A DNA stretch of 24,480 bases from a virus: IMG/VR virus record IMGVR_UViG_3300040808_001452, positions 1 through 24,480 of that record; one strand, given 5' to 3'. The position numbers and the translations under genes were made by a program. Below are positions 1-17,700 of the stretch, piece by piece. Numbering within the stretch: the stretch's first letter is position 1; each line of letters opens with the position of its first letter. The notes under the pieces are model-generated. The model made no database searches. It was not told the DNA's origin and was given only the letters and a program-made list of their open reading frames with translations.

Positions 1-2766
1 CCATTGCCTGGAAACAGTCCTGCATTGCTATTTAGAGATGACGGACAAGGCGCAGGAAGTTCAAATACAGGATTCTTTATGCATTTCCGCCAAGGCAAAT
101 TACAAACTGGCGAATTTAATGTAACTAATCCTGTACCTAATCAGGTCATAGCTATTGATACAAAAGATATTAACAACGATGATGTTTGGTTGTATTCTAT
201 TGACGCTAATGGATTTGAAAGTAATCTTTGGACAAAACTTCCTAGTGTTGAAGGCAACAACATAATTTATAATAGTTTACTAAAAAATGTAAAAAATGTT
301 TATGCAGCAACTACACGAGTTGGCGACAGAATCAATTTAATTTTTAGCGATGGCGTTTTTGGTAACTTACCTACAGGTAATTTTAGAGTTTATTATCGAA
401 CAAGTGATAATCGTAGCAGCACAATTACTCCTAGTGCGCTAAGAAATATAACTATTCAAGTTCCGTATATTAGTAGAAAAAATGCTTCAGAAACCTTAAC
501 AATTACTTTAGCTTTACAGTATACAGTTTCAAATGCAACACCTAGCGAATCTAATGACAGAATTAAAACTGTTGCACCTAGCACGTATTATACACAAAAT
601 AGATTAATTACAGCAGAAGACTATAATTTAGGTCCACTAGGTGTAAGTCAAGATGTAATTAAAACAAGATCAATTAACAGAATTAGTAGCGGAATAAGCA
701 GATATTTTGATTTAAAAGATGTAAGCGGAAAATATTCTAGTACTAATCTTTATGCTAATGACTGTGTTTTATACAAAGAAGAATTTACAAGAAAAGATTC
801 ATTTAGTTTTGTTACACAAAGTGATATTGAAGGTGTAATTTACAATCAAATTGAACCTATTTTGTCTAATACAAAAATGAGAAATTTCTATTTGGCAAAA
901 TACAATAAAATTATTGTTAGTGATCTTAAAGCTTCTTGGAACGGTACGACAAATGTTACTAATTATTCTTCGGGTTATTTTACTGACCAAGACGGTTCGT
1001 CCTATACAGTTGGGTCATTTACAAGTAACAGTTTAAGACTTTTAGAAGTTGGAAGTATGTGTAAGTTTGATGCTCCTGAAGGATATCATTTTATGGATGA
1101 TAATACACTTATGCCAGGAGCAGCAGATCATATCGGATCTAAGACTTTTATTTGGTCTAAAGTTGTAACTATTACAGGAAATGGATCAGAAGCTGACGGT
1201 ATTGGGTTTAATGATTTTATTCCAGATAATGCTTTACTTTCCGAAATTCGACCTAGACTAGCAGACACACTTATCAATGATGTAAAAACACAAATTATTG
1301 ATCAAGTTTTTGCATTTAGGGATTTTGCACTTAGATATGATGACCGTGATAGACAGTGGAAACTTATTACAGCAGATAATATTAATACAGTGCAAGACTT
1401 TAGCACAGGTAAAGCAGGCGATACTAGCGGCCAGCAGTTAGATTCTAGCTGGTTGTTATATTTTAAAACTAATGGAGAAAACTATACAATTACATATAGA
1501 AACTTAAGATATGTAATGGAAAGCGAAAGTGAAATTAGATTTTTCTATGATAGAGCTGATAAAATTTATGACAGTAAAACAGGCCGAATTCAAAAAGATA
1601 AAATTTCTGTTTTAAATGTAAATCGTCGTCCTGATGACTTAACTTCTTTTACACAGGACTTTGACTGGAGTATTGATGATTCTTATAGAGACAAAGAAGG
1701 ATACATCGATACTAAAAAAGTTGAAGTAACATTTTTTGATTCAGACGATGACGGTGTTGTAGACAATCCGGATATTTTTGATCAGATTGTTGATGAAACA
1801 GTTAACAGTAATTCTAAAATCATATTCCAAGAAAAATATACAACTAGTGACAATGTAGAAGATTTTAAATATTTTAACAACCACTCAAATACAATTATAA
1901 GTGTGCAAAACCAAGCACAGATAGGTGCATTTAGTCTTTACAATGATGGACAGGTATTTTACTTAATTGAAGAAGATGTTTTCAAAACACTAGATAGAAC
2001 AAATGCAAGATTAGATTTAAATTCTAATTATAGAGCATTTATAGGTAGAGCTGATTTAAAAATTTATTATTTACATGTAGCAGATTCAAATACAAGAATC
2101 GATCCTGCTCTTTCTAATATTATTGACACATATATTTTAACAAAAAATTATGATACACAATTTAGACTTTGGTTAGACGGTGAATTACGTTCAATGCCAT
2201 TGCCATTAAGTAGTGATCAATTATACAGAAGTTATGGAAAATCTTTAAATGACATTAAATCTATTTCGGACGAAATAATTTACCATCCTGTAAAATATAA
2301 AACACTTTTCGGAACTAAAGCTATGAGTGATTTACAAGTGACATTTAAAGTTGTAAAAAATAAAGATGTTGTAATAAATGATAATTCTTTAAAATCAAAT
2401 ATTGTTGATTTAATTAATAGATATTTTAGCATAGAAAATTGGGATTTTGGTGATACATTCTATTTCCAAGAATTATCAGCATATATTATTAATAATCTTT
2501 CACCAAAAATTGTAAGCATTGTTATTGTTCCTAATCAGGCTGATCAGTCATTTGGTAGTTTATTCCAAATTAAATCTGAACCAGACGAAATTTTTATTAG
2601 CGGAGCAACTGTGCAGGATATAGAAATGATAGATGAAATTACTGCTACAAAATTACAATCAGCAGGCAATGTTGTAACATCAGTTGATACAAGTGTAGTA
2701 GGTGTACAGAGTACAGCATCTACTACAACAGCATCTTCAAGTGTTAGTGGAGGAACTACATACTAA
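1..2766 (+). CDS. Baseplate wedge protein, gp6/gpJ-like, 5'-truncated by window edge
   Basis: Seen: the frame is open from base 1, so the TTG at 4 is not a credible start and the true N-terminus lies upstream. Counting from the codon at 4, residues ~107-125 read GDRINLIFSDGVFGNLPTG, the DGVFG-P-G signature of gp6/baseplate J-type wedge proteins. Residues ~194-207 (TYYTQNRLITAEDY) match the 'Y-TQ-R-vTaeDY' motif of the same family. A DSDDDGVVD loop at ~579-587 resembles a calcium-binding loop. Two further blocks, NIIDTYILTKNYD (~705) and FGDTFYFQEL (~815), are ones I recall from marine T4-like gp6-type proteins. The tail end is a Ser/Thr/Val-rich low-complexity stretch. Known: wedge proteins of this family dimerise and form the iris-like inner ring of the contractile-tail baseplate. 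Inference: same role here. At over 920 residues it is longer than T4 gp6 (~660), so it carries extra domains. The stop overlaps the next start by one base. Confidence 0.7.
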   Translation, partial: PLPGNSPALLFRDDGQGAGSSNTGFFMHFRQGKLQTGEFNVTNPVPNQVIAIDTKDINNDDVWLYSIDANGFESNLWTKLPSVEGNNIIYNSLLKNVKNVYAATTRVGDRINLIFSDGVFGNLPTGNFRVYYRTSDNRSSTITPSALRNITIQVPYISRKNASETLTITLALQYTVSNATPSESNDRIKTVAPSTYYTQNRLITAEDYNLGPLGVSQDVIKTRSINRISSGISRYFDLKDVSGKYSSTNLYANDCVLYKEEFTRKDSFSFVTQSDIEGVIYNQIEPILSNTKMRNFYLAKYNKIIVSDLKASWNGTTNVTNYSSGYFTDQDGSSYTVGSFTSNSLRLLEVGSMCKFDAPEGYHFMDDNTLMPGAADHIGSKTFIWSKVVTITGNGSEADGIGFNDFIPDNALLSEIRPRLADTLINDVKTQIIDQVFAFRDFALRYDDRDRQWKLITADNINTVQDFSTGKAGDTSGQQLDSSWLLYFKTNGENYTITYRNLRYVMESESEIRFFYDRADKIYDSKTGRIQKDKISVLNVNRRPDDLTSFTQDFDWSIDDSYRDKEGYIDTKKVEVTFFDSDDDGVVDNPDIFDQIVDETVNSNSKIIFQEKYTTSDNVEDFKYFNNHSNTIISVQNQAQIGAFSLYNDGQVFYLIEEDVFKTLDRTNARLDLNSNYRAFIGRADLKIYYLHVADSNTRIDPALSNIIDTYILTKNYDTQFRLWLDGELRSMPLPLSSDQLYRSYGKSLNDIKSISDEIIYHPVKYKTLFGTKAMSDLQVTFKVVKNKDVVINDNSLKSNIVDLINRYFSIENWDFGDTFYFQELSAYIINNLSPKIVSIVIVPNQADQSFGSLFQIKSEPDEIFISGATVQDIEMIDEITATKLQSAGNVVTSVDTSVVGVQSTASTTTASSSVSGGTTY
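1738..1764 (+). other. Putative calcium-binding loop (DxDDDGxxD) in wedge protein
   Basis: Residues ~579-587 read DSDDDGVVD, followed by N-P-D-x-F-D. The spacing of acidic residues and the central glycine match EF-hand-like or thrombospondin-type-3 calcium loops. No second loop or helix partner is obvious, so binding is inferred only. Confidence 0.4.
2749..2754 (+). promoter_or_regulatory. Shine-Dalgarno for the giant gene, inside the wedge gene
   Basis: GGAGGA lies 11 bases before the ATG at 2766. It sits within the last codons of the wedge gene, whose stop TAA (2764-2766) shares its final A with the ATG. This is the strongest ribosome-binding site in the window and supports both the chosen start and translational coupling. 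Confidence 0.75.
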
Positions 2767-5700
2767 TGTCTACTAATGAGCAAAATGAATATGGTCCTAA
2801 CGGTAAAAGAAAAACTAGCGAACTATTACCTCGATTTTTTAGAACCACAGCTAATAATAAGTTTTTGCAAGCTACATTAGACCAACTTACACAGCCCGGC
2901 GTTGCAGAAAAAATAGATGGATATTTTGGTAGAAAAAATGCAAAAGCATTTATGCCTAATGACAATTATGTCGGTGATGTATCAAAGCAGAGAGAAGATT
3001 ATCAGTTTGAACCTGCTGCTGTAATCAAAGACGATTTAGGAAATGTAACTTTTTACAAAGATTATAATGATTACATTAACCAAATAAAAGCATTTAATGG
3101 TAATACACAAAATCATGATAAATTAAATCGACAAGAAACATATGCATGGAATCCTAATATTGATTGGGACAAGTTTGCAAATTATCGTGAGTATTATTGG
3201 TTACCTAATGGTCCTCAACCTGTATCAGTTTATGGAGAATCTAAAGAAGTTGTTTCTACTTATACTATTGAATTAGTTGAAGATGACGACAATTTTGCTT
3301 ATGTATTTTCTCCTGATGGTAGAACAAGAAATCCTGTGTTAAATTTGTACAGAGGGCAAAAATATAGATTTGAAATTAATACTCCTGGACATCCTATTGC
3401 TTTTGCACTAAGCAGAAGTTGGACTCCGGGTGTAGCAGTTATAACTGCAAGCACAGAAGGTGTAAGAGCTAATGCACTATTTGATGTACAATTGTATGAT
3501 GATGTATCGTATGATGTAGGCGATTTTATTATTCTTCCTTCTACTGGCGGTATTGATTTCGGTGATGACGAAAATGTCTCTCAACTATATCCAGATGGAA
3601 TAATAAAGCTAGGTGAAGAAGGTGAAGAAGTAGCAAATCTTTATATAGAAAAAGGAACAATTGAATTTACTGTTCCAGATAATGCACCTGATAGATTATA
3701 TTATATTAGTAAAAACAACATTGATACAAGCGGTGAAGTTCGTATTGCTGATATTGAAGAAAACACATTTTTAAATATTGATACTATACTTGGTAAAAAA
3801 GACTATATTAGTGCAAACGGTATTAAATTTACAAACGGTTTAAAAGTTTATTTCCAAGGTGATATTACACCTGAAAAATACAGCAAAGGTCAGTGGTATG
3901 TCGAAGGTGTTGGCGATAAAATTAAACTTGTAAGTGAAGACAATCTATTAATTCCTACAACATACTCTGAAGAATTAATTGTACCTTTTGATTCTAATCC
4001 ATTTGATGTTTTACCATTTGGAAGTTCAAGTACATATGCAGCAAATAAAGATTATATAGTTGTTAATAAAGCTAGCCAAGATAGAAACCCCTGGAGTCGT
4101 TATAACAGATGGTTCCATAGAGATGTAATAGAGCAAGCTGCTGCATATAATACGCAACCTGTAAATGTAAACGAAGCAGCAAGGGCAAAACGTCCTATTA
4201 TTGAATTTAAAGCTGGATTGAAGTTATTTAACTTTGGATCAGCTGCTAAAGATGATGTAGATCTAGTAGATGATTTTACTACAGATGTATTTTCTATAAT
4301 TGAAGGATCAAGTGGATATAATATCGACGGAGTTGATATTACACAAGGTATGCGTATTTTATTTACAGCAGATACAGATATACTTGTAAAAGACAAAATT
4401 TATACTGTCAATTTTATTACTATAGGAAATAATCGTCAAGTAAGTCTTTTAGAAACAGAAGACACTCTTCCACAGGATTTAGAAACTGTGCTAGTTACTA
4501 ATGGTGAAAAATATGCAGGTAAAACATTTAGTTATGAAAATGGATCATGGAATTTATCTCAAGAAAAAATTAATTTAAATCAACCTCCATTATTTGATAT
4601 GTGCGATGCCGAAGGAATATCATATAATAATGAAAGCAAATATGAATCTTCTTCTTTTGCAGGAACTAAGATTTTTAGCTACAAGCAAGGTACTGGTATA
4701 AATGATACAGAATTAGGCTTTCCTTTGTCATATAAAAATATCGAAAACAGCGGTGATATTCTTTTTGATTTTAATTTGTTAATAGATTCTTTTACATATC
4801 AAGTTCAAGAAGGTGTATTTACTGTTGACGTAGACACAGGATTTGTAAAAAAATATTCTGATCTAACAACCTATACTTATGAAAACGGATGGAATGAAAT
4901 TCCTTACGATAGTAAACAGTATGTAATTAGACAATATGCAGCAGAATTAGGAAGTGTTAATAATTTTGAAATAGATGTATATAACAAGGCTGGCGATTTA
5001 AATGATTTAAAAGTTGTTGTTTACCGTAATAACAAAATTCAAATTAGATTATCTGATTATGAAATAGATAGAATTAACGGTAAAGCCTTTATAAGATTTT
5101 ATAATGATTTACCTATTGGAGATAAAGTTATTATAAAAACAAGTAGTGCAACTACTAAAAATAATAATGGCTATTATGAGTTTCCACATAATCTAGAACG
5201 TAATCCCCTCAATGAAGATGTAAGTGAATTTACACTAGGTGAGGTTTTAGACCATGTAGATACTATGATTGAGGAATTGACTCCTTTTAAAGGAACATAT
5301 CCAGGACCTAGTAATTTAAGAGATCTTGGAGAAATAGATAGATTAGGAAAAAGATTTGTAAAACATAGTGGACCTATAAATTTGCCGTTATATCATATTA
5401 CAAATAAAAATAATAATATGGTAAAAGCAATTAGATTTGCAATGCGAGAGTATGCTAAGTTTAAAAGAAATTTTGTGCAAACTGCAACAGATTTTCCTTT
5501 TGATGGTTCTGTAAAAGATCATGTTGATGCTATACTTACAGAAATTAACAAAGATAAAACAAAAAGCATGCCGTTCTACTTTAGTGATATGTTACCGGTA
5601 GGACCGAGCCGCAAACTAGATTACACTGTTTTAGATCCTAGAAATCCATTTTATGCGCTAACTAGTCCTTTTACTCTTGACACTCTTAGCGAAAAAGCAG

Positions 5701-8700
5701 TACAAGTATACTTAAATGGTAATCTTCTTTTACACGGAAGAGATTATACATTTGATCCAGAAGGTTTTGGACTACTAGTTGCAGGACAGCAGGAAGGCGA
5801 CACAGTAGAAATATATGAATGGGCAAGCACTGACGGAAGTTTTATTCCTCCTACACCTACTAAACTAGGTCTATATCCAGCATATGAACCTATGATTTTT
5901 GTAGACGATACTCACAAGCAACCTGTGCTTAGTATTCAAGGACATGATGGTAGTATTGTACGTGCCTTTGACGACTATAGAGATCAACTCGTATTAGAAT
6001 TTGAAAGAAGAATTTATAATAATATCAAGCAAGCATATAATCCTGAATTGTTAGATATACATGAATTTAAGGGCAGTAATTACAGAGATACAACTTTTTC
6101 TAGACAAGATATAAATGATGTTCTTTTAACTGATTTTACAAAATGGTTGCAATTAGTAGATTTCGATTATAACGACAATAGTTTTTACGATCGTAACGAT
6201 CAGTTTACATTTAATTACAGTCAAATGACTTCTCCTAATGGCAAAAGTCTTCCTGGATATTGGAGAGGTGTATACATAGAGGCATACGATACAGACCGTC
6301 CGCATACTCATCCGTGGGAAATGCTTGGATTTACAAGAAAACCTGACTGGTGGAATGAAGTATACGGCCCGGCTCCGTACACACGGAATAACCTAGTTTT
6401 ATGGAAAGATCTTGAAGAAGGAATCATAAGAGAACCAGGTAAAGCTGTTATAAGAAAACCTCAGTATGCAAGGCCAGGGTTACTAGATCATATTCCTACT
6501 AACGATAGTGGTAAACTATTGTCTCCACTTGCAAGCAATTTTGCAAAAAATTATGTTTTAAATCCTACAAGAAATAATTATGATTTTGGCGATCATTCTC
6601 CTGTAGAAAATGCTTGGAGGAAAAGCAGTGAGTATCCATTTAGTTTAATCACTGCTTGGTTGTTAAATCAGCCTGCTAAACTATTTGGATTAGGTTTTGA
6701 TATTTCAAGGATAAAGAAAAATCTAGCAAATCAATATGTCTATGCAGATACAAACAAGCACATTGAATTAAACAAGATTGCTTTGCCGAATACATATGAA
6801 TCTAATAATCGTGTTTTAACAAGCGGTTTAGTAAATTACATTTATAACTTAATTACAAATGATGTTACAAAATTCTATGAAAATTATGATTACGATCTTA
6901 AAAACTTAAACAATCAATTAGGCATTAAGATTGCTGGATTTACAGACAAACCTAAGTTTAATTTATTATTAGATAGTAGATCACCTAATGCTACTGAAAA
7001 AGGAGGCATATTTGTACCACAAGAAAATTATCAAATATTCCTTAATACAAGTTCTCCAGTAGATACTCCTATATATTCTGGTGTTACTGTAGAAAAAGCA
7101 GGCGGCGGATTTATTGTTAGAGGATATAGTTTTGATAATCCTTTCTTTAACTATTTTAAACCAATTAACACAAATGCTGACGTTGATGTTGTAATTGGAG
7201 GTGTTTCTGAAAACTTTGTTGATTGGACAGAAAACAAAAGATATAGTGTAGGACAAATTGTTAGAAACAATAACCGCTTTTATAGAGTCACTGATGATTT
7301 TACAAGCACCGAAAGTTTTGATACAGAAAATTTTGCTACATTACCTGAGCTACCAATTACCGGCGGTAGAAGAGCAAAATTTAGGAAAGTTTTCAACACA
7401 CGTAAAGTTGAAAGAATCAATTTTGGCACGTTATTTAGAACTGTACAAGAAGTTGTAGACTTTTTACTTGGATACGGAAAATATTTAGAAAGTCTAGGAT
7501 TTGAGTTTGATTACTTTAATGATGAAACTCAAGTAGTTGAAAATTGGGATTTCAGTGCAAGAGAATTTTTATTCTGGACAACACAAAATTGGGCGTTAGG
7601 AAGTGCAGTAAGTTTAAGTCCAGCAGCAAGTATAATAGAATTTAAATCTCAAAATAGTGTGGTTGATAATCTATTTGATAACTTCTATGAATACAGTATT
7701 TTAAATTCAGACGGTAGATCTGTATTACCTGAGCTTACACATGCACTAAGAGATGAAAATAGTTTTGGCTTAACATTTAAAAATACTACAGACGGTGTAT
7801 ACCATTTAAGACTACCACTTGTACAAAAAGAACACGTAGTTTTATTAGATAACAAAACACAGTTTAATGATATAATCTATCAAAAAACTACAGGTTATCG
7901 CCAAGAAAGAATTAGAGTGCTAGGTTATAGAACTGACGGCTGGACTGGCGGATTTAATATACCAGGTTTTGTTTATGACGATGCTAAAATTACAACTTGG
8001 CAACCTTGGACCGATTATGTAATTGGTAATATTGTAAAATACAAAGAATTTTATTATACAGCAAATATTAATATTACTGGTACATCTACTTTTGAAAGTA
8101 AAAACTGGCAACGTTTAAATTCTAAACCGGAGTCAGAACTTTTAACAAACTTTGATTATAAAATTAATCAATTTGCTGACTTTTATGATTTAGACAGCGA
8201 TAATTTTGATACAGAGCAACAAAAACTTGCACAGCATTTAATTGGATATCAAAAAAGAGATTATCTAAAGAATATTATCAAAGATGATGTAAGTCAATAT
8301 AAATTTTATCAAGGATTTATTCAAGATAAAGGTACTACTAATGCTCTTACCAAATTGTTTGATGCATTAGGATCAGCAGACAAAGATAGTTTAGAATTTT
8401 ATGAAGAATGGGCTATTCAACTCGGTCAGTATGGAGCAAGTACAAGTAAAGATTATATAGAATATGAGTTAGACGAAAAAGAATTTGAATTATCTCCACA
8501 GCCTATTGCATTAGTAAATAGCATTCCAGAAAAAGCAGGAGATCAAGTTTATAGAATTAGACCATTCCAAATTTATGATCAATCTCAAGAACACAGTATT
8601 ACTCCGTTTCCTGTTGTAGACAAATTACAAGAATATATTAAGAGCAGTGGATATGCTAGAGCAGACGATGTAAGATATCGTGTAGCAAGTATAGAAGATG

Positions 8701-11700
8701 TAGCCGGTATAGAAGTAAACAATGTAAACTTGGGAGATTATATTTGGGTATTAGACGATCTTGAAAATAATTGGACTGTTCTACAACTAGCTGATGCAGA
8801 AATGACTGTAGGTACAATTACTCTTAACGATCCTACTGACAATACAATATTGTCAAAGTATAATTTATCTGCATCTCAAGTAATGTCATTAACACTTAAT
8901 AGATATCCAAATGAATTAATTAATATTGATGACTACATCGGTATGATAGGTGCAGAACAGTATAACGCAAACTATTTTTATAAAGTTTTAGATATTTCAA
9001 AGAACATTATTACTGTTCAAAAACCCACTGATCCTGAAATAACAAGCACACTTATTACAGATCAGTATTTGCCGCTTGTGATTTTACGTAAAGTAAGAGC
9101 AATTGATATTAATTCTGCAAATGAAATAATTCAAGAATTTAAAGACAGAGGACAAAAAGTTTGGATAGACAATTATGACGGTGATTGGAAAGTTATTGAA
9201 AATGATCCAGTTTATAGTTCACTCCAGTCAATAAATAATCCCTCACAGTGGGATAGTACTTTCCATGATTTTGCAAGTAAAGTAGCAGTCAGTGAAAACA
9301 ACAGAGATTTGATAATTGGTGCTCCGGGTGAATTAGATGGTAGAGTGCATTATTACTTTAGAAATCAAGAAAGAAATAATACTGTCCTACAGCAAACAAT
9401 TGTTCCGCCTACAGATGTAATAGATAGTGAAAATAACAATTATCAGTTTGGACAATCTGTGGCTGTTTCACCAGACGGAGAATATCTAGCTATAGGTATT
9501 CCAAATGCAACTAATGTTCGTACTAGATTTAAAGGCGAATTTAGTGATCTTGGCACATATAACAAAGCTGAAATTGTAAAGTATAGAGAAAGCTATTGGA
9601 GAGCCAATAGAGAAATTTTACCTAAAACAGGCGGCCAAGAGTTTACAACGTTCAACTCTTATCTAGACATACTTAATGCAGATGAATCTGCAGACTCTTC
9701 TATAGTAAGACTATTAGTTACTGGTGATCCACAACTTCCAAATTCAGAAGTCGACCATTTCTTAGTAAGAGCAAATCAAGAACAATTTCTTGCTTCAAGT
9801 GTAGGAGATACTTTAGGATTAACATGGAATAGATTTTCGAGAGCTAATGGTGATCTAAATGAAACTTTACCGTGGAACGGAGATGCAGGATTAACGTATG
9901 ACAATATAACCGGTAATCATATCATTGCAGCAAAAGTAGACGTTATTTTCTATATTCCAACTTTTGTAGGATTGCCTGTTGTAGGAGATTTTGTTACAAC
10001 TGCTACCGGTAGTGCAGAAGTTGTTTATATAGGAACAGAAGCAGACGGTGCTGTAATTTATGGTAACAATCAAAATGGTACATTCCAGTTAGAAGGCAAT
10101 CTCTTTATTGGTGATGATGAATTAGTCGGTGCTTATAGTATAGCTGAAACTGATAACATAATTGATAGCTTAGGCGGCTTCTGGAAAATAGATGTTGCTC
10201 CGTATGATAATGGAAACACATGGTTTGATCAAGGTAAAGGTTTAATTTATAATGACCTTAGACTAGCAACAGAATCTAGAGATATATTTGAGTATTACAA
10301 TGTACAAAATATTATTAGTGGCCTAGGTAGCGGACTGAAACAAAAATTTCAAGGTTCGCAGATTATCAACCTTAAATATCAAGATGATCCAGATGCTCCT
10401 TTACCTAACACAATTAGTTCAGAAGACTTACTTGGACCAGGATTTGAAAACGTATGGTTAATTAGAGGTGCTAAAAATTACACAGATACTCTAAGCATTA
10501 GTGAAAAAATAAGATTGACTGTATACAATCTTGACAACTATGTTATTGATGTTGAAGCAGCTGGACTTACATTTGACCAACTAAACAAAGAGCATGAAGT
10601 TTTAGATCTTTGGGACGGATTTATAGATTTAGAATATACAGAATTCGATTTTATAGGTAATACTTTTAATATTGAAGTTGGTGATACGATAGAAGATGTA
10701 CAATATCCATTCGATATCTTTGGTGGTGTTGCAAGCACTCCTTATGCAGCAACAAGCACTGGGGAAGTTGTGTATGTGCAAACATTCTTTAATAGTGCTA
10801 GAGTATATTTAAAAAATATCACAGGAACTTGGGAAACACTTAATAACGTCGCTAGGTATAAAGTAAAAAGATTAGGTAATGAAGATCTAAGAGGTCTTGG
10901 AGATCCTGATAGGGTTAGTGCAACTATTGAAGATCCTGACAATGGTATTTCTTTAGGTACAAACAATGTACAATCTGATTTAAGTATAGGTAAATTAATT
11001 GTTTTACAATCAGATACACCTCTAGGATTACCAACAAGGCCGTATGCACCTAATATACAAACTGAATTAGCATATTCAAGTGCAGCAATTGTTGATGAAG
11101 AATATTGGTTCTTTAATATTAAGCAAACGGTGGGTGTTGGTAGAGGAGCTAGTTTCCCTCATAGTTTAAACAAAGACTATTCACAAGTTTATAGTATTCC
11201 TGTAAGCGAGTTTGGCGAAGCAAGTTATTATAACGAAGGTGTTGTTGCTTTATATAGAAAAGGGTTCTCAAACGACTACGAATATATGAACAGTATTGTT
11301 TCTGAATCAAGACAAGATAATAAAGGATTTGGCGAAAAGGTTGAATTTATACAAAATGGTTTAGAATACACATTGTTTATAACTAGCAAAGGAGATGGCT
11401 CCTCAAATAATAACGGCACATTAGAAGTTATAAAACATGGTATTCCTTTAATCGAACAAGACAATTATGTCGGCGATTGGATAGGACAAAGAAGCTATGA
11501 TAAAAATACTATTGTAAGTTATCTAGGAAAGTTTTATAGAGCTGTTAGAGCTGTGCCTGATTTAGATTTTGGCGCAACTGTATTTGTTAACAATACAGTT
11601 TACTGGGAAGACTATAGTTGGCGTTACGGTAAGGATCCTGAATACAGAGGATTATTCAATAACAATCTACCTTATGTTACTGGCGAGTTAGTAAGTCATC

Positions 11701-14700
11701 CGGTTGATGATAGTTCACTAGCTACACCTGCATTATATAGAGCAAGGACAAATATTGCAATTGGTGCTGTGTCTCCTGTATCTTCTCCTAATGCTTGGGA
11801 AAGAGTTACAGATGGTGTTGATTATTTAGGATCGCTACCGAATAGATCAGGAACAGCTTTCTTAGATAATGAAGAAGTTTTTGATCCTACTTCAACAAAT
11901 AGTTATGCATTAGAAGATACATTACAATTTGCAGAGAGCTTTGCAGTTAATAAAACTGGTGATGTATTAGCAGTAGTAAGTAAACAAACAACTGACTCTA
12001 CTCCGAGTAATGTTGTAGTAATTTATAGATTAGTTGAAGACAAATATATGTATGACCAAGTCATTACTACAGCGTCTTTAGATAAAACAGATATATCACA
12101 AAAATCTTTAGCAGACAGCGGTTTTGCACAAGATGTTCAAATTAGCCCAGATGGGTTGACTATTGCTATATCGCATCCATTCTCAGAAATTGATGTAGTA
12201 AATCAAGGTACAGTTCATATATATTCACAACAAACAGTAAATGGTAAAGCACAATTTGTTCTAAACCAAACATTACAAAGTCCTAAAAAACAAGAAAGTG
12301 AAAAGTTTGGATATAGTATTGCTTTAGATAATACACAACTTGCAATTACAAGTGTAAATGGAGATATTACTCTACCTACTACATTTGACAATGACGAAAC
12401 AAGTTTTGATAATAACTTTACACAATTTAAAAACGTTCAATACGATAGTGGTGTTGTTTATGTGTATGAAAACGTAGGCAGTAGCTTCTTATATTCTGAA
12501 CAGTTTGTATATAAAGCAGACAAAATGATATACTTCGGAGAATATCTAGAAGTTAAAGGAAATCACATTTATGTAGGTATTCCTAGATATAGACCAAACG
12601 AGTCAGAGCAAGGATTACTTGTTGACTTTAGAAAAAATATAAGTGCGTCTGGATGGAATATAATTAGAGAACCTAACCCAATTGTTGACGTTGATAAAAT
12701 ACGTAGTGTGTATCTGTATAACAAAGTGACAAAAAGTATTATCACTTACTTAGATTATGTTGACAGTATACAAGGAAAAATACCCGGACCTGCAGAACAA
12801 GAATTGCAGTATAAACTTCCTTATGATCCTGCAAGATATAATATTACTCCTATTAGTGATCTTTACAGTGAAACTAATCATTGGGGACCAGCACAAGTTG
12901 GCGAATTATGGTGGGATCTAAGTAGTGCAAGATTCTTACATGCATATCAAGGTGATATAATCTTCCAAAATAATAATTTTAATTTAATGAATCCTGGAAA
13001 AACTGTAGATGTCTACGAATGGGTTGAAAGTGATATTATACCTAGCGAATGGGACGATATAGCAGATACAGAAACAGGCTTACAAGCTGGCATAAGTGGA
13101 CAAAGTTTATATAGCGATACGCTTTATGTCCAAAAAATTAATTACGATGCAGCAAGTCAAACATTCGGAAGTAAATTCTACTTCTGGGTTAAAAACAAAA
13201 AGACTATACCTGTCAAAGAAGGTAGATCATTATCTGCACTAGACACAGCAAGATTAATACAAGACCCTTCACAGCAGGGATATAGACATATTTCGTTCTT
13301 ATCTAATGATAAGTTTGTGTTACATAACTGCAATTCTTTAATTAATGATAAAGATGTTGTTTTACACATTGATTGGCTATCAGGCAATGATCCTAAACAG
13401 AACACTCACACTCAGTATCAAATAATGAGCGAAGGTTTAGATACAAGCAGACTAAATGCTGATATTGAACGTAAATGGTTTGACAGTTTAGTAGGATATG
13501 ACGAAAAATTACGCATTGTTCCTGATCCTAGCTTACCGATTAGACAGCGTTATGGTAACAGATTTAAACCAAGACAAACAATGTTTGTAAATAAAACAGA
13601 AGCACTGAAACAGGTGATTGAAAGAATTAATGATATTACAGCTAAGAATTTAATAGCTGATGATTATGATATTAGCAATTTATCTCAAGCACAAACAGCA
13701 CCTTCTGAATTTACATTCCTATATGATACTACAATTGATACTGAACAAGAATTAAGATTTGTCGGTACAAGTAAAATTACAAAGGCAGAACTAGAGCCTG
13801 TTATCTTAAATGGCGAGATTGTACGTGTTAATATTATCAATCCTGGTAGAGGTTACAGAGTAGCACCTTCTTATACTATTAATGGTACAGGATATGATGC
13901 TGAAGTAGAATTTACAATTAATAATTTAGGCCAGATTACTTCGGTAGAAGTTATTAATGGCGGTAAAGAATACGAAAATAGTACTACTATCGATGTAAGA
14001 TATTTTAGTGTATTAGTAAGTAATGATAGTACAGTCTACGGCAAATGGTCAATATATTCATGGAATGATGTATCAAAAGAATGGTTTAGACAACAGGTAC
14101 AAGAATTTGATGTTTCTTTGTTCTGGGATTATATTGATTATTATGCAGATGGATTTAATCAATTTACTAAAATTGACTATGAAATTGATCAATCATATGA
14201 ATTATTTGGTTTAGGTGTTTCTATAGGAGACGTAGTAAAAATAAACAATATCGGAACAGGCGGCTGGCTATTGCTACAAAAAGTTGCAGATGAAGATACT
14301 GAAGACTTTACTATAAATTACGATACTATAGGACGCCAAAACGGTACAATTCAATTTAAATCATCTCTATATGATTTGTTAGGAAATAGCATAGGATATG
14401 ATACAAGAAGTTTTGATAGTTATTTCTACGATAGTCAACCGATTAATGAAACTAGAATTATTCTTGAGACCATTAGAGATAGTATTTTTGTCGGAACATT
14501 AGCAGTTGAGTATAATAAACTATGGTTTGCAAGTTTAAGATATGTATTTGCTGAACAAATTTTAGTTGATTGGGCATTTAAAACAAGCTTTGTAAAAAGT
14601 AAACACAATTTAGGTGAGCTAGAACAAGATATTACATTTAATGCAGATACATTGCCTGATTATGAATCGTATATTAATGAAGTTAAACCTTTCTCTACTA

Positions 14701-17700
14701 CAATTAGAGAGTTTATAAGTGCATATGATGCACTAGATAATACTTCATCAGCAGTTACAGATTTTGATTTGACGCCGGTATACGATCCGGCACTGCAAAA
14801 AATTGTTTCTAGCACAGCATTAGTAGTCGACGATACTGTTGTTGCAGAAAACTTACCAATAAATGAATATCCAAGAAAATATTGGAAGGATAATTTTGGT
14901 TATGAAGTTAAAGAAATTATAATTGCAAATCCGGGAAGTGAGTACACGTTCCCTCCTACAGTTAATATAAGCGGCGGTGGCGGCGAAGGCGCAACAGCAA
15001 GAGCATATATCGGTCAAGGTAAAGTTACAAAAATTGAAATTCTAAATCCAGGTACAGGATATATTAGTCAGCCTACAGTAACCATACAAGGTTCTCAGTC
15101 AGATACTGGTATACCTGCAAGTGCAAGTGTAGTATTAGGCAATGGCGTTGTTAGAAGTACAAAAGTTAAAATTAAGTTTGACAGAATCAAAGGATCATAC
15201 CTATTTACAGCATTAGACCAGTCAGAAAGTTTTGTCGGAACAGGTGATAAAACTAATTTTGATTTAGAATGGCCTATGAATTTACAAAACACATTGGTCA
15301 AAGTTTATGTAGACAATAGAGAGTTACTAAGAAGTGAATACAGATTTGAAAACATAGACAACAATGATAAATCTTATACTAGACAACAAGGTAGAATTAT
15401 TTTTACAAAACCACCTGTACAAGATCAGGCAATAACAGTAGAATATTTTAAACCTTTAAGTATGTTAGATGCAGCTGACAGAATTTATAACGCTTACACA
15501 CCAACATCAGGAATGGCAGGAGTTGAACTAGGACAACTTATGAACGGTGTAGATTATGGTGGAGTAGAAGTAAAAGGATTTGATTTTACAAGATCTAGAG
15601 GTTGGGATTCAGATAATTGGTATGACGGCGCATGGGATCCGTACGAAGAAACATTTGAAGATGAAGTCTTTACATTTGACGGATCAACAGTAAGCATTAC
15701 ACTTTCTAGACCATTAGAAGATGGTGTAGTTTATAATGTTTATTTTGGCTCCGGAATAGGGAACGAACTATGGCGTGCAGAAAGAATAGATGATCCAAAC
15801 TTTGATAGTGCTGAAAGACTATATGATGGTGTTGTTATTAATCCTATTACAGGAGACGGAGTTACAGACACAATCTACTTAGATGAATTAGGCATTGTTG
15901 TTACAGACGGTGATGTTATCATAATTAGAAAACAATCAAGTGATGGTAGTTTTGCTCCTGATCCTACAAGTTACGATACACAATTAAGTGGCGGCGATCT
16001 AGTTTATTCTACTGCTACTGGTTTAAATCCAGAAGATATAATTATAGATGGTGACGGATTTGTAACACCTACTACAAGTAAAGGTCCTGAAGAACTTGTT
16101 CCAGGTCAATTAGTAGATACACTTGACTTAAAAGTTTATACTAGAGAAGGTGCAGGACAAGGAGAAATATATTCTCAGTCATATACAACAGACGGTGTAA
16201 CAACAACATTTGATTTAGGAGTTATTCCTAACAATCCAAATGCTGTGTTAGTAAAGTTAGACAATGTCATTTTGCCAAAAACAGAATATACCATTGATTG
16301 GGAAGCAAATACAATTACTCTAAATAGTGTTGCTGACGCCGGCAAAGAATTTAATATTATAACAGTAAGCGGTAGTGCTCAAAATATTCTTGATAGTGGA
16401 ACTATTGTTGCAGACGGAACATCTGCAGAATATATTGTTCCGGTAGAATATATTGATACAGTGTCAGTATTTGCAACAATCGACGGAGTAAAAGTTGAAG
16501 ATTTGCTAGTAATCAATGATGCAGATACAGGAAATATTGCACTAAGATTTGACACAATACTTGCTGCTAATGTACTTGTAAGATATGTAGTGTTCTATGA
16601 TAACACACAAATTAACTATAGTCAAATGACAAGAGAAGATATTGTCAGTGATGGTAGTACTTTGGTGTATGATCTAGCAAATCAACCTTTGTATCAAGCT
16701 CCTACTGCGTATAACACACTTGTAAAAACAGGAAATACTATACTTAATGCAGGATATAATGTCCAATATACTATATCTGAATTAGAAGAAAGAGAATTCC
16801 AGTTAGAACTATTCCAACAACCTCTTGCAAGTGTTGATACAGATCAAATTCAAGTATACTTAAACGGAGAAAAATTAGAATTCCCAAGAGATTATGCTTA
16901 CAGTATTGCTAATAGTGCAGTTACATTAAATGGAGGTGTAGGCACCACAGGTGACATTTTAGAAATATATGTAAAAGAAGATGGAGATTACTTTATAGAA
17001 GGTAATCAAATCACTTTTGCTACAGCAATTGCTGAAGACCAAGTAATTGAAATTTACACATTTACTAATCATGATATATTAGGCATCGAAAGAATAAATT
17101 ATGATGTGGTAAACAGAACAACATTAACAGCAGGCACAAAGGAATATGGTACATATCATAGTTTAACTTCTGGAGTTATACAATTAAGAAAACCTGCTGT
17201 AAACGTAAAATATGTTTGGCTAAGTCTAAATGGCGAATTGCTAACACCTGCGGTTGATTACAGTCTTAATGACGATAAAACCGAAGTACATTTAGCACAA
17301 ACGCCTGCAGAAAATGATGTTATAGATATAATTCATTTTAGTGCAGATATCGGTACTGAAAGATTTGGCTTCAGACAATTTAAAGATATGCTTAACCGCA
17401 CACATTTCAAACGCCTTGATAGCCCAGAAACAGAATTAGCACAAGATCTAAATTGGTACGATATACGTATAGAAGTTTTAGATGGTGCTGCCCTGCCTGA
17501 ACCAAATAAAGGCGAAAATATGCCGGGTATAGTGTTTATAAATGGCGAAAGAATTGAATACTTTGTCAAAGAAGATAATACACTAAGACAAATACGCAGA
17601 GGAACATTAGGTACAGGTGTAGCAAATGTTCATAGTGCTGGTGAAGGTGTATATGATCAAGGGCCTGGTAAAACTATTCCTTATCAAGACAATACAATTA

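Follow-up and report, generated by a model that had tools for sequence, protein, structure and literature searches.

A predicted split integrin-type propeller in a giant phage protein encoded next to a baseplate wedge gene

The giant protein and its predicted propeller

The stretch of viral DNA analysed here (the window) is the complete IMG/VR record IMGVR_UViG_3300040808_001452, 24,480 bases long. It carries, in this order, a gp6-like baseplate wedge gene, a giant open reading frame (ORF) of 5095 amino acids, a gene for a protein of 200 amino acids and three fibre-like genes (Table 1). A first-pass annotation, made from the letters of the DNA, had read seven FG-GAP-like units in the giant ORF and proposed that they fold into one integrin-type propeller split by long insertions. 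For this element we computed the predicted fold and ring closure, the site of insertion, a single split in the family tree, the order of nesting and the positions of modules in the propeller. The models give good support to the view that the seven units form one closed integrin-type propeller.

AlphaFold2 was run on residues 2125-3324 with the inserts included, using 32 sequences (residue = model index + 2124), and blades were assigned in the model from DSSP and the sequence. The predicted local distance difference test score (pLDDT) was 82.1 and the predicted template modelling score (pTM) 0.70. VIA aligned this model with integrin alpha-M from model residue 24 to 1175 (Z 23.2, root-mean-square deviation 3.2 Å over 356 residues). 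Comparison with the seven-bladed WD40 protein WDR61 by VIA covered 288 of 293 residues at 2.6 Å. On the strength of these two matches, the region of the window is predicted to close as one propeller, as had been proposed. Natural relatives without long inserts (L021, L023 and L017) were used in place of a window construct with its inserts deleted, and seven clean blades were found in the insert-free relatives. The L021 region lies at residues 1873-2398 of its giant protein. The L021 model (pLDDT 80.2, pTM 0.82) gave a VIA Z of 36.6 over 362 residues with only integrins among the top 50, and Foldseek matched it to an integrin at E 7.3e-15. Foldseek of the 1200-residue window model placed large multi-propeller eukaryotic proteins on top at very low template modelling scores; these matches were rejected as size effects, and VIA and the L021 model were preferred.

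The seven units were all readable, in order, at the residues where they had been placed. Their extent had been put at 9261-12785; the start agrees with that of blade 1, but the domain stops near residue 3302 (window position 12671). Sequence profiles matched both FG-GAP and integrin families. Neither of the two outcomes that the first-pass annotation had given as refuting its reading, a confident model lacking one closed propeller or profile searches with no match, was seen. Pfam FG-GAP_2 (PF14312) matched a piece of the window at E 9.4e-6 (26.2 bits vs. a curated cut-off of 23), with its best stretch at residues 3177-3198 in blade 6, and it matched 26 of the 32 homologous regions (best, 3.6e-18). 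A PF14312 search of entire DNA records failed to find the window. It is thus less sensitive than scanning proteins, and we drew nothing from its negatives. We also built a blade profile from three relatives only, with the window excluded. It gave domain scores of 3.7, 13.3, 5.7 and 4.5 for blades 1, 2, 5 and 6 of the window, and in the controls the best shuffled copy scored 0.6 and the reversed protein gave no match. Blades 3, 4 and 7 are too diverged in the window for this profile, and they are assigned from the structural model together with the alignment of the family. The family profile reached integrin alpha-4 by sequence alone (E 6.5e-6), and phmmer searches of single window pieces against PDB sequences gave no match.

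Site of insertion and history of the propeller

When the window flanks of the propeller were joined, they aligned with the uninterrupted proteins of L030 (E 4e-13) and PA5oct (E 1e-12), and the alignment ran from 'KVWID..DW.V' straight into the '...LVD' strand across the junction. A profile of the propeller-free phages matched the right flank alone over residues 3278-3363 (E 3.3e-17). The propeller-free members, PA5oct and L030 among them, align across this site without a break, which places the propeller at the turn of a hairpin. It is well supported that the propeller was inserted as a unit into an older baseplate-cluster protein that RaK2-like jumbo phages also have.

A tree was constructed from the upstream body of the protein (877 columns, propeller columns left out; unrooted). 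One branch with support of 100/100 parted 22 carriers of the propeller from 12 non-carriers. Presence of the propeller is thus a single split, which on this unrooted tree corresponds to one gain or one loss. A gain explains it more simply, since several deep and distinct non-carriers have an uninterrupted site. Among the 80 nearest contigs, blade matches were found in all 67 in which both flanks were readable, two of which had only one match; in census rows L074, L075, L135 and L138 the left border was misplaced and the spans were ignored. Atu_ph07 and Phosso (L057 and L059) carry ∼1500 amino acids of unrelated sequence, at approximately residues 1900-3160, before an intact hairpin. Insertions seem to have recurred in this part of the protein, which in the window holds the propeller.

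Insertions within the propeller

The split of blade 2 by ∼570 residues and the insertion after blade 3, both reported in the first-pass annotation, were borne out at the positions given in Table 1. The blade-2 insert is absent in L021, L023, L017, L019 and L024, and a homologous domain is present in most of the close clade. Median identity was 64% for the blade-2 insert, 58% for the blades and 52% for the blade-3 insert. We had considered the blade-2 insert as a hypervariable, fast-evolving tip, which its conservation relative to the blades ruled out.

Several of the inserts hold modules resembling carbohydrate-binding module (CBM) families 5/12, which the first-pass annotation had not named. 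Pfam CBM_5_12 (PF02839) matched 23 of the 32 members (best, 4.1e-13); in the L041 counterpart of the blade-3 insert it reached 1.7e-5 over two stretches. With the family profile, the copies matching the probable second module of that insert scored well in L041 (E 1e-13) and L032 (E 4e-14). The sites of the modules are between blades 1 and 2 (L041, L036, L006 and L013), in the B-C loop of blade 2, between blades 3 and 4, and in the B-C loops of blade 4 (L025) and blade 6 (L036). The B-C and D-A loops of a propeller lie on one face, the ligand face of integrins. Two more CBM5/12-like modules, located upstream of the propeller, are conserved in nearly all relatives.

The early-branching carriers (L024, then L019, L027, L021 and L023) lack a homologue of the large insert, and their propellers gave no CBM-like match. 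L025, which lies just outside the large-insert clade, has CBM5/12-like modules in its loops and the large domain only at its module-like start. The 15 rows with the ∼500-amino-acid domain, including the window, form one clade, and the domain follows a module in the blade-2 loop between strands 2 and 3. An order of nesting in which the uninterrupted propeller came first, the CBM5/12-like modules later and then the conserved ∼500-amino-acid domain is well supported.

Table 1. Positions of the giant gene, its neighbours and the parts of the predicted propeller in the window
Feature	Window position	Strand	Residues	Basis
gp6-like baseplate wedge gene	1..2766	+		phrog_10646 E 4.5e-199, phrog_219; 5' end outside window
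Giant protein of the putative baseplate cluster, 5095 amino acids	2766..18053	+		open frame; phrog_10938
Upstream CBM5/12-like module	7224-7304		1487-1513	Pfam 1e-6
Upstream CBM5/12-like module	7998-8123		about 1745-1786	
Left flank of insertion site, first strand of host hairpin, KVWIDNYDGDWKVIEN	9147..9215	+		aligns, joined to right flank, with propeller-free proteins
Probable ring-closing strand	9216..9236	+	2151-2157	DSSP strand 27-33 of model; integrin alignment begins at model residue 24
Blade 1	9261..9431	+	2166-2222	profile 3.7 bits; strands 2172-2175/2181-2186/2193-2198/2207-2212
Blade 2, strands one and two	9441..9518	+	2226-2251	profile 13.3 bits; strands 2231-2234/2240-2245
Blade-2 insert, 571 amino acids	9519..11231	+	2252-2822	between second and third strands; missing from insert-free relatives
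CBM5/12-like module, start of blade-2 insert	9552..9650	+	2263-2295	family profile E 1e-7; no Pfam match in window
Blade 2, last two strands	11232..11321	+	2823-2852	strands 2825-2832/2838-2844
Blade 3	11322..11447	+	2853-2894	strands 2859-2864/2867-2873/2886-2892 in model; fourth not clear
Blade-3 insert	11448..11909	+	2895-3048	absent in insert-free relatives
CBM5/12-like module, blade-3 insert	11478..11615	+	2905-2950	family profile E 2e-5; Pfam E 0.02, below cut-off
Probable second, degenerate CBM5/12-like module, blade-3 insert	11664..11810	+	2967-3015	read by eye in window
Blade 4	11910..12095	+	3049-3110	strands 3051-3061/3067-3075/3080-3090/3093-3100
Blade 5	12117..12281	+	3118-3172	profile 5.7 bits; strands 3124-3126/3132-3137/3149-3158/3161-3170
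Blade 6	12303..12509	+	3180-3248	profile 4.5 bits; strands 3181-3187/3191-3196/3230-3237/3240-3247
Blade 7	12531..12671	+	3256-3302	strands 3260-3264/3267-3272/3284-3289/3297-3301
Right flank of insertion site, GWNIIREPNPIVDVDKI...DPARY	12642..12860	+		propeller-free profile; alignment through junction
Two GxGYxxxP-type modules	13782-14003 and 14895-15140			
Three fibre-like genes	18688-24415			

Gene neighbourhood and source phages

The family phrog_10938, annotated 'virion structural protein', matched successive pieces along the body of the giant protein at E 2e-268, 1e-34 and 5e-77. The wedge gene is followed by the giant gene also in PA5oct, RaK2, CBB and Munch. Comparison of the window order with the T4 map puts the giant gene, directly 3' of the gp6-like gene, in the position of T4 gp7. 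hhalign gave no match of T4 gp6-gp12 to the giant protein, but the gp6 positive control failed too; a weak Pfam gp7-domain-V match (E 0.012) was seen in L041. The propeller-free PA5oct homologue, gp355, is annotated as detected by electrospray ionization tandem mass spectrometry (ESI-MS/MS). T4-type gp23 major capsid matches of ∼1e-80 or better were found on the source contigs of L005, L006, L008, L023, L028, L032 and L042. No psbA gene was present in the 14 contigs examined, which, as these are fragments, speaks weakly against a cyanobacterial host. The giant protein family is encoded on at least 596 contigs of one viral collection, and the carriers of the propeller are uncultured phages, mostly marine.

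Downstream of the propeller, the giant protein has two GxGYxxxP-type modules that also occur in many PHROGs families annotated as baseplate wedge or virion proteins. The giant frame is broken in two by a stop or frameshift in L045 and L017, by error or as a true split. In L028 a propeller-free homologue lies on a contig of 523,836 bases, which exceeds the largest phage isolates named in the cited literature. The three fibre-like genes have a repeated N-terminal module in common (71-80% DNA identity over short stretches). Their C-terminal ends differ: one matched tail collar, none was found for another, and one is Peptidase_G2/cement-like.

Comparison with known systems

The predicted propeller resembles that of the integrin alpha subunit in its fold, its seven blades, the FG-GAP strand motif and the probable closure by an N-terminal strand, and alpha-I integrins likewise have a domain inserted between propeller blades. 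Unlike the integrin subunit, it is embedded in a phage protein, its repeats are FG-GAP_2 and not classical FG-GAP repeats, and its inserts are CBM5/12-like modules and a 500-amino-acid domain rather than an I domain. The integrin calcium motif (DxDxDG-type; D.[DN].[DN]G..[DE]) had no match in the window or in eight relatives, and because of its absence we did not file the window propeller as an integrin.

The giants of phrog_10938 (RaK2, PA5oct, Atu_ph07 and 121Q type) are homologous in the body and after the propeller and show the same order after the gp6-like gene. However, the sampled named phages have no propeller, and in Atu_ph07 and Phosso a different sequence of comparable length precedes the hairpin. 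The rhizobial jumbo-phage 'hemagglutinins' (AP-J-162 gp213; Atu_ph07 A0A2L0UZX4) contain an integrin-type propeller and belong to a related phage group, whereas they are stand-alone proteins of about 375-394 amino acids and not part of a baseplate protein. AP-J-162 gp213 has been likened to human integrin (PMC11242549). S-TIM5 H6WG31 (407 amino acids, annotated virion structural protein) is another phage virion protein with a predicted propeller, but it is a separate small protein in which no insertion into a giant protein was seen. FG-GAP propellers are widespread in viruses; a BFVD search lists giant-virus proteins, the S-TIM5 virion structural protein and the Atu_ph07 'hemagglutinin' among them. 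Vp4 Gp119, a wedge protein, and evolved Dits have glycan-binding modules inserted in baseplate proteins (PMC11406892; PMC8540738), but there the modules are of other CBM families without a propeller as carrier, and the phages are unrelated.

A tblastn search with two insert-free propellers of 50,697 phage records, a set from which the records nearest to the window may be missing, found none with this propeller in the giant protein. No description of a split propeller in a baseplate giant was found in the literature searched, nor in PHROGs. The first-pass annotation knew of no described virion protein with this architecture, and none turned up in the phage collection, in PHROGs or in the literature searched, but FG-GAP propellers as such were already known in phages.

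Discussion

We favour the explanation that the giant ORF of the window comes from a T4-related myovirus and encodes a protein of the baseplate cluster, and that the nested insertions of this protein form an adhesion platform on the baseplate periphery in which the propeller displays glycan-binding modules; our probability for this explanation as a whole is about 0.6. We infer the place in the virion, the glycan binding and the role in adsorption. The adhesion reading is based on the baseplate-cluster location, the recurrent gain of modules of glycan-binding type and the precedent of the baseplate wedge protein Gp119 of Vp4, which contains CBM folds and binds bacterial cells (PMC11406892). Adsorption of Vp4-type phages requires polysaccharides (PMC11406892). 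The two hairpin strands would hold the propeller away from the baseplate wedge, and the propeller would present the carbohydrate-binding modules, perhaps its own ligand face too, to host-surface polysaccharide. Such reversible, low-affinity contacts would supplement those made by the tail fibres, whose genes lie adjacent. The propeller is probably a docking platform that aids the grip of the phage on its host.

Several observations weigh against this explanation. FG-GAP propellers also act as plain protein-protein scaffolds. The CBM5/12-like modules within the window propeller are degenerate and score below the Pfam cut-off. Their placement on one face is only a tendency (5 of 6 sites, which alone is not significant), because one module of the blade-3 pair apparently lies on the opposite face, in the loop from strand C to strand D. 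The blade-2 insert is conserved like the body of the protein, and this conservation is at least as compatible with a structural role as with a hypervariable receptor tip.

The same conservation (64%), together with the blades in all 67 readable rows and the common use of beta-propellers as protein-protein platforms, would be expected if the propeller and its inserts dock tail fibres or brace neighbouring wedges within the baseplate with no direct contact to the host. We regard such a scaffold as possible but doubtful, given that CBM5/12-like modules recur at several loop sites of the propeller. Fibre docking as its sole role is disfavoured because in PA5oct, which lacks the propeller, the giant gene is followed by the same genes, those for the 200-amino-acid protein and the fibre-like proteins included. 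An enzymatic or enzyme-like action of the propeller on polymers of the host surface is very unlikely: some propeller proteins degrade polysaccharides and CBM5/12 modules are frequent companions of such enzymes, but the library scans of all pieces of the region gave no enzyme family above cut-off, and the best structural matches are integrins. It is scarcely credible that the FG-GAP-like strings are chance repeats, strewn over a beta-rich protein without making up one propeller. Repeats are indeed abundant in large beta-rich phage proteins, and blades 3, 4 and 7 of the window fall below threshold alone; the closed-ring match of the models over the whole region, the seven clean blades of the insert-free relatives and the integrin match by sequence profile argue against it.

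As a tentative extension of the adhesion platform, the propeller may have been acquired once and the loops of one face may then have served again and again as entry points for glycan-binding modules. Such a display carousel would allow the surface specificity of a phage lineage to change while its fibres stay the same.

The fold and the history of the propeller are well supported; its function we infer. The nested insertions in this core virion protein are ordered, from hairpin to propeller, to modules, to large domain, and uninterrupted forms and empty sites survive in living lineages. For an abundant, uncultured group of phages, the propeller provides a concrete candidate for attachment to the host.

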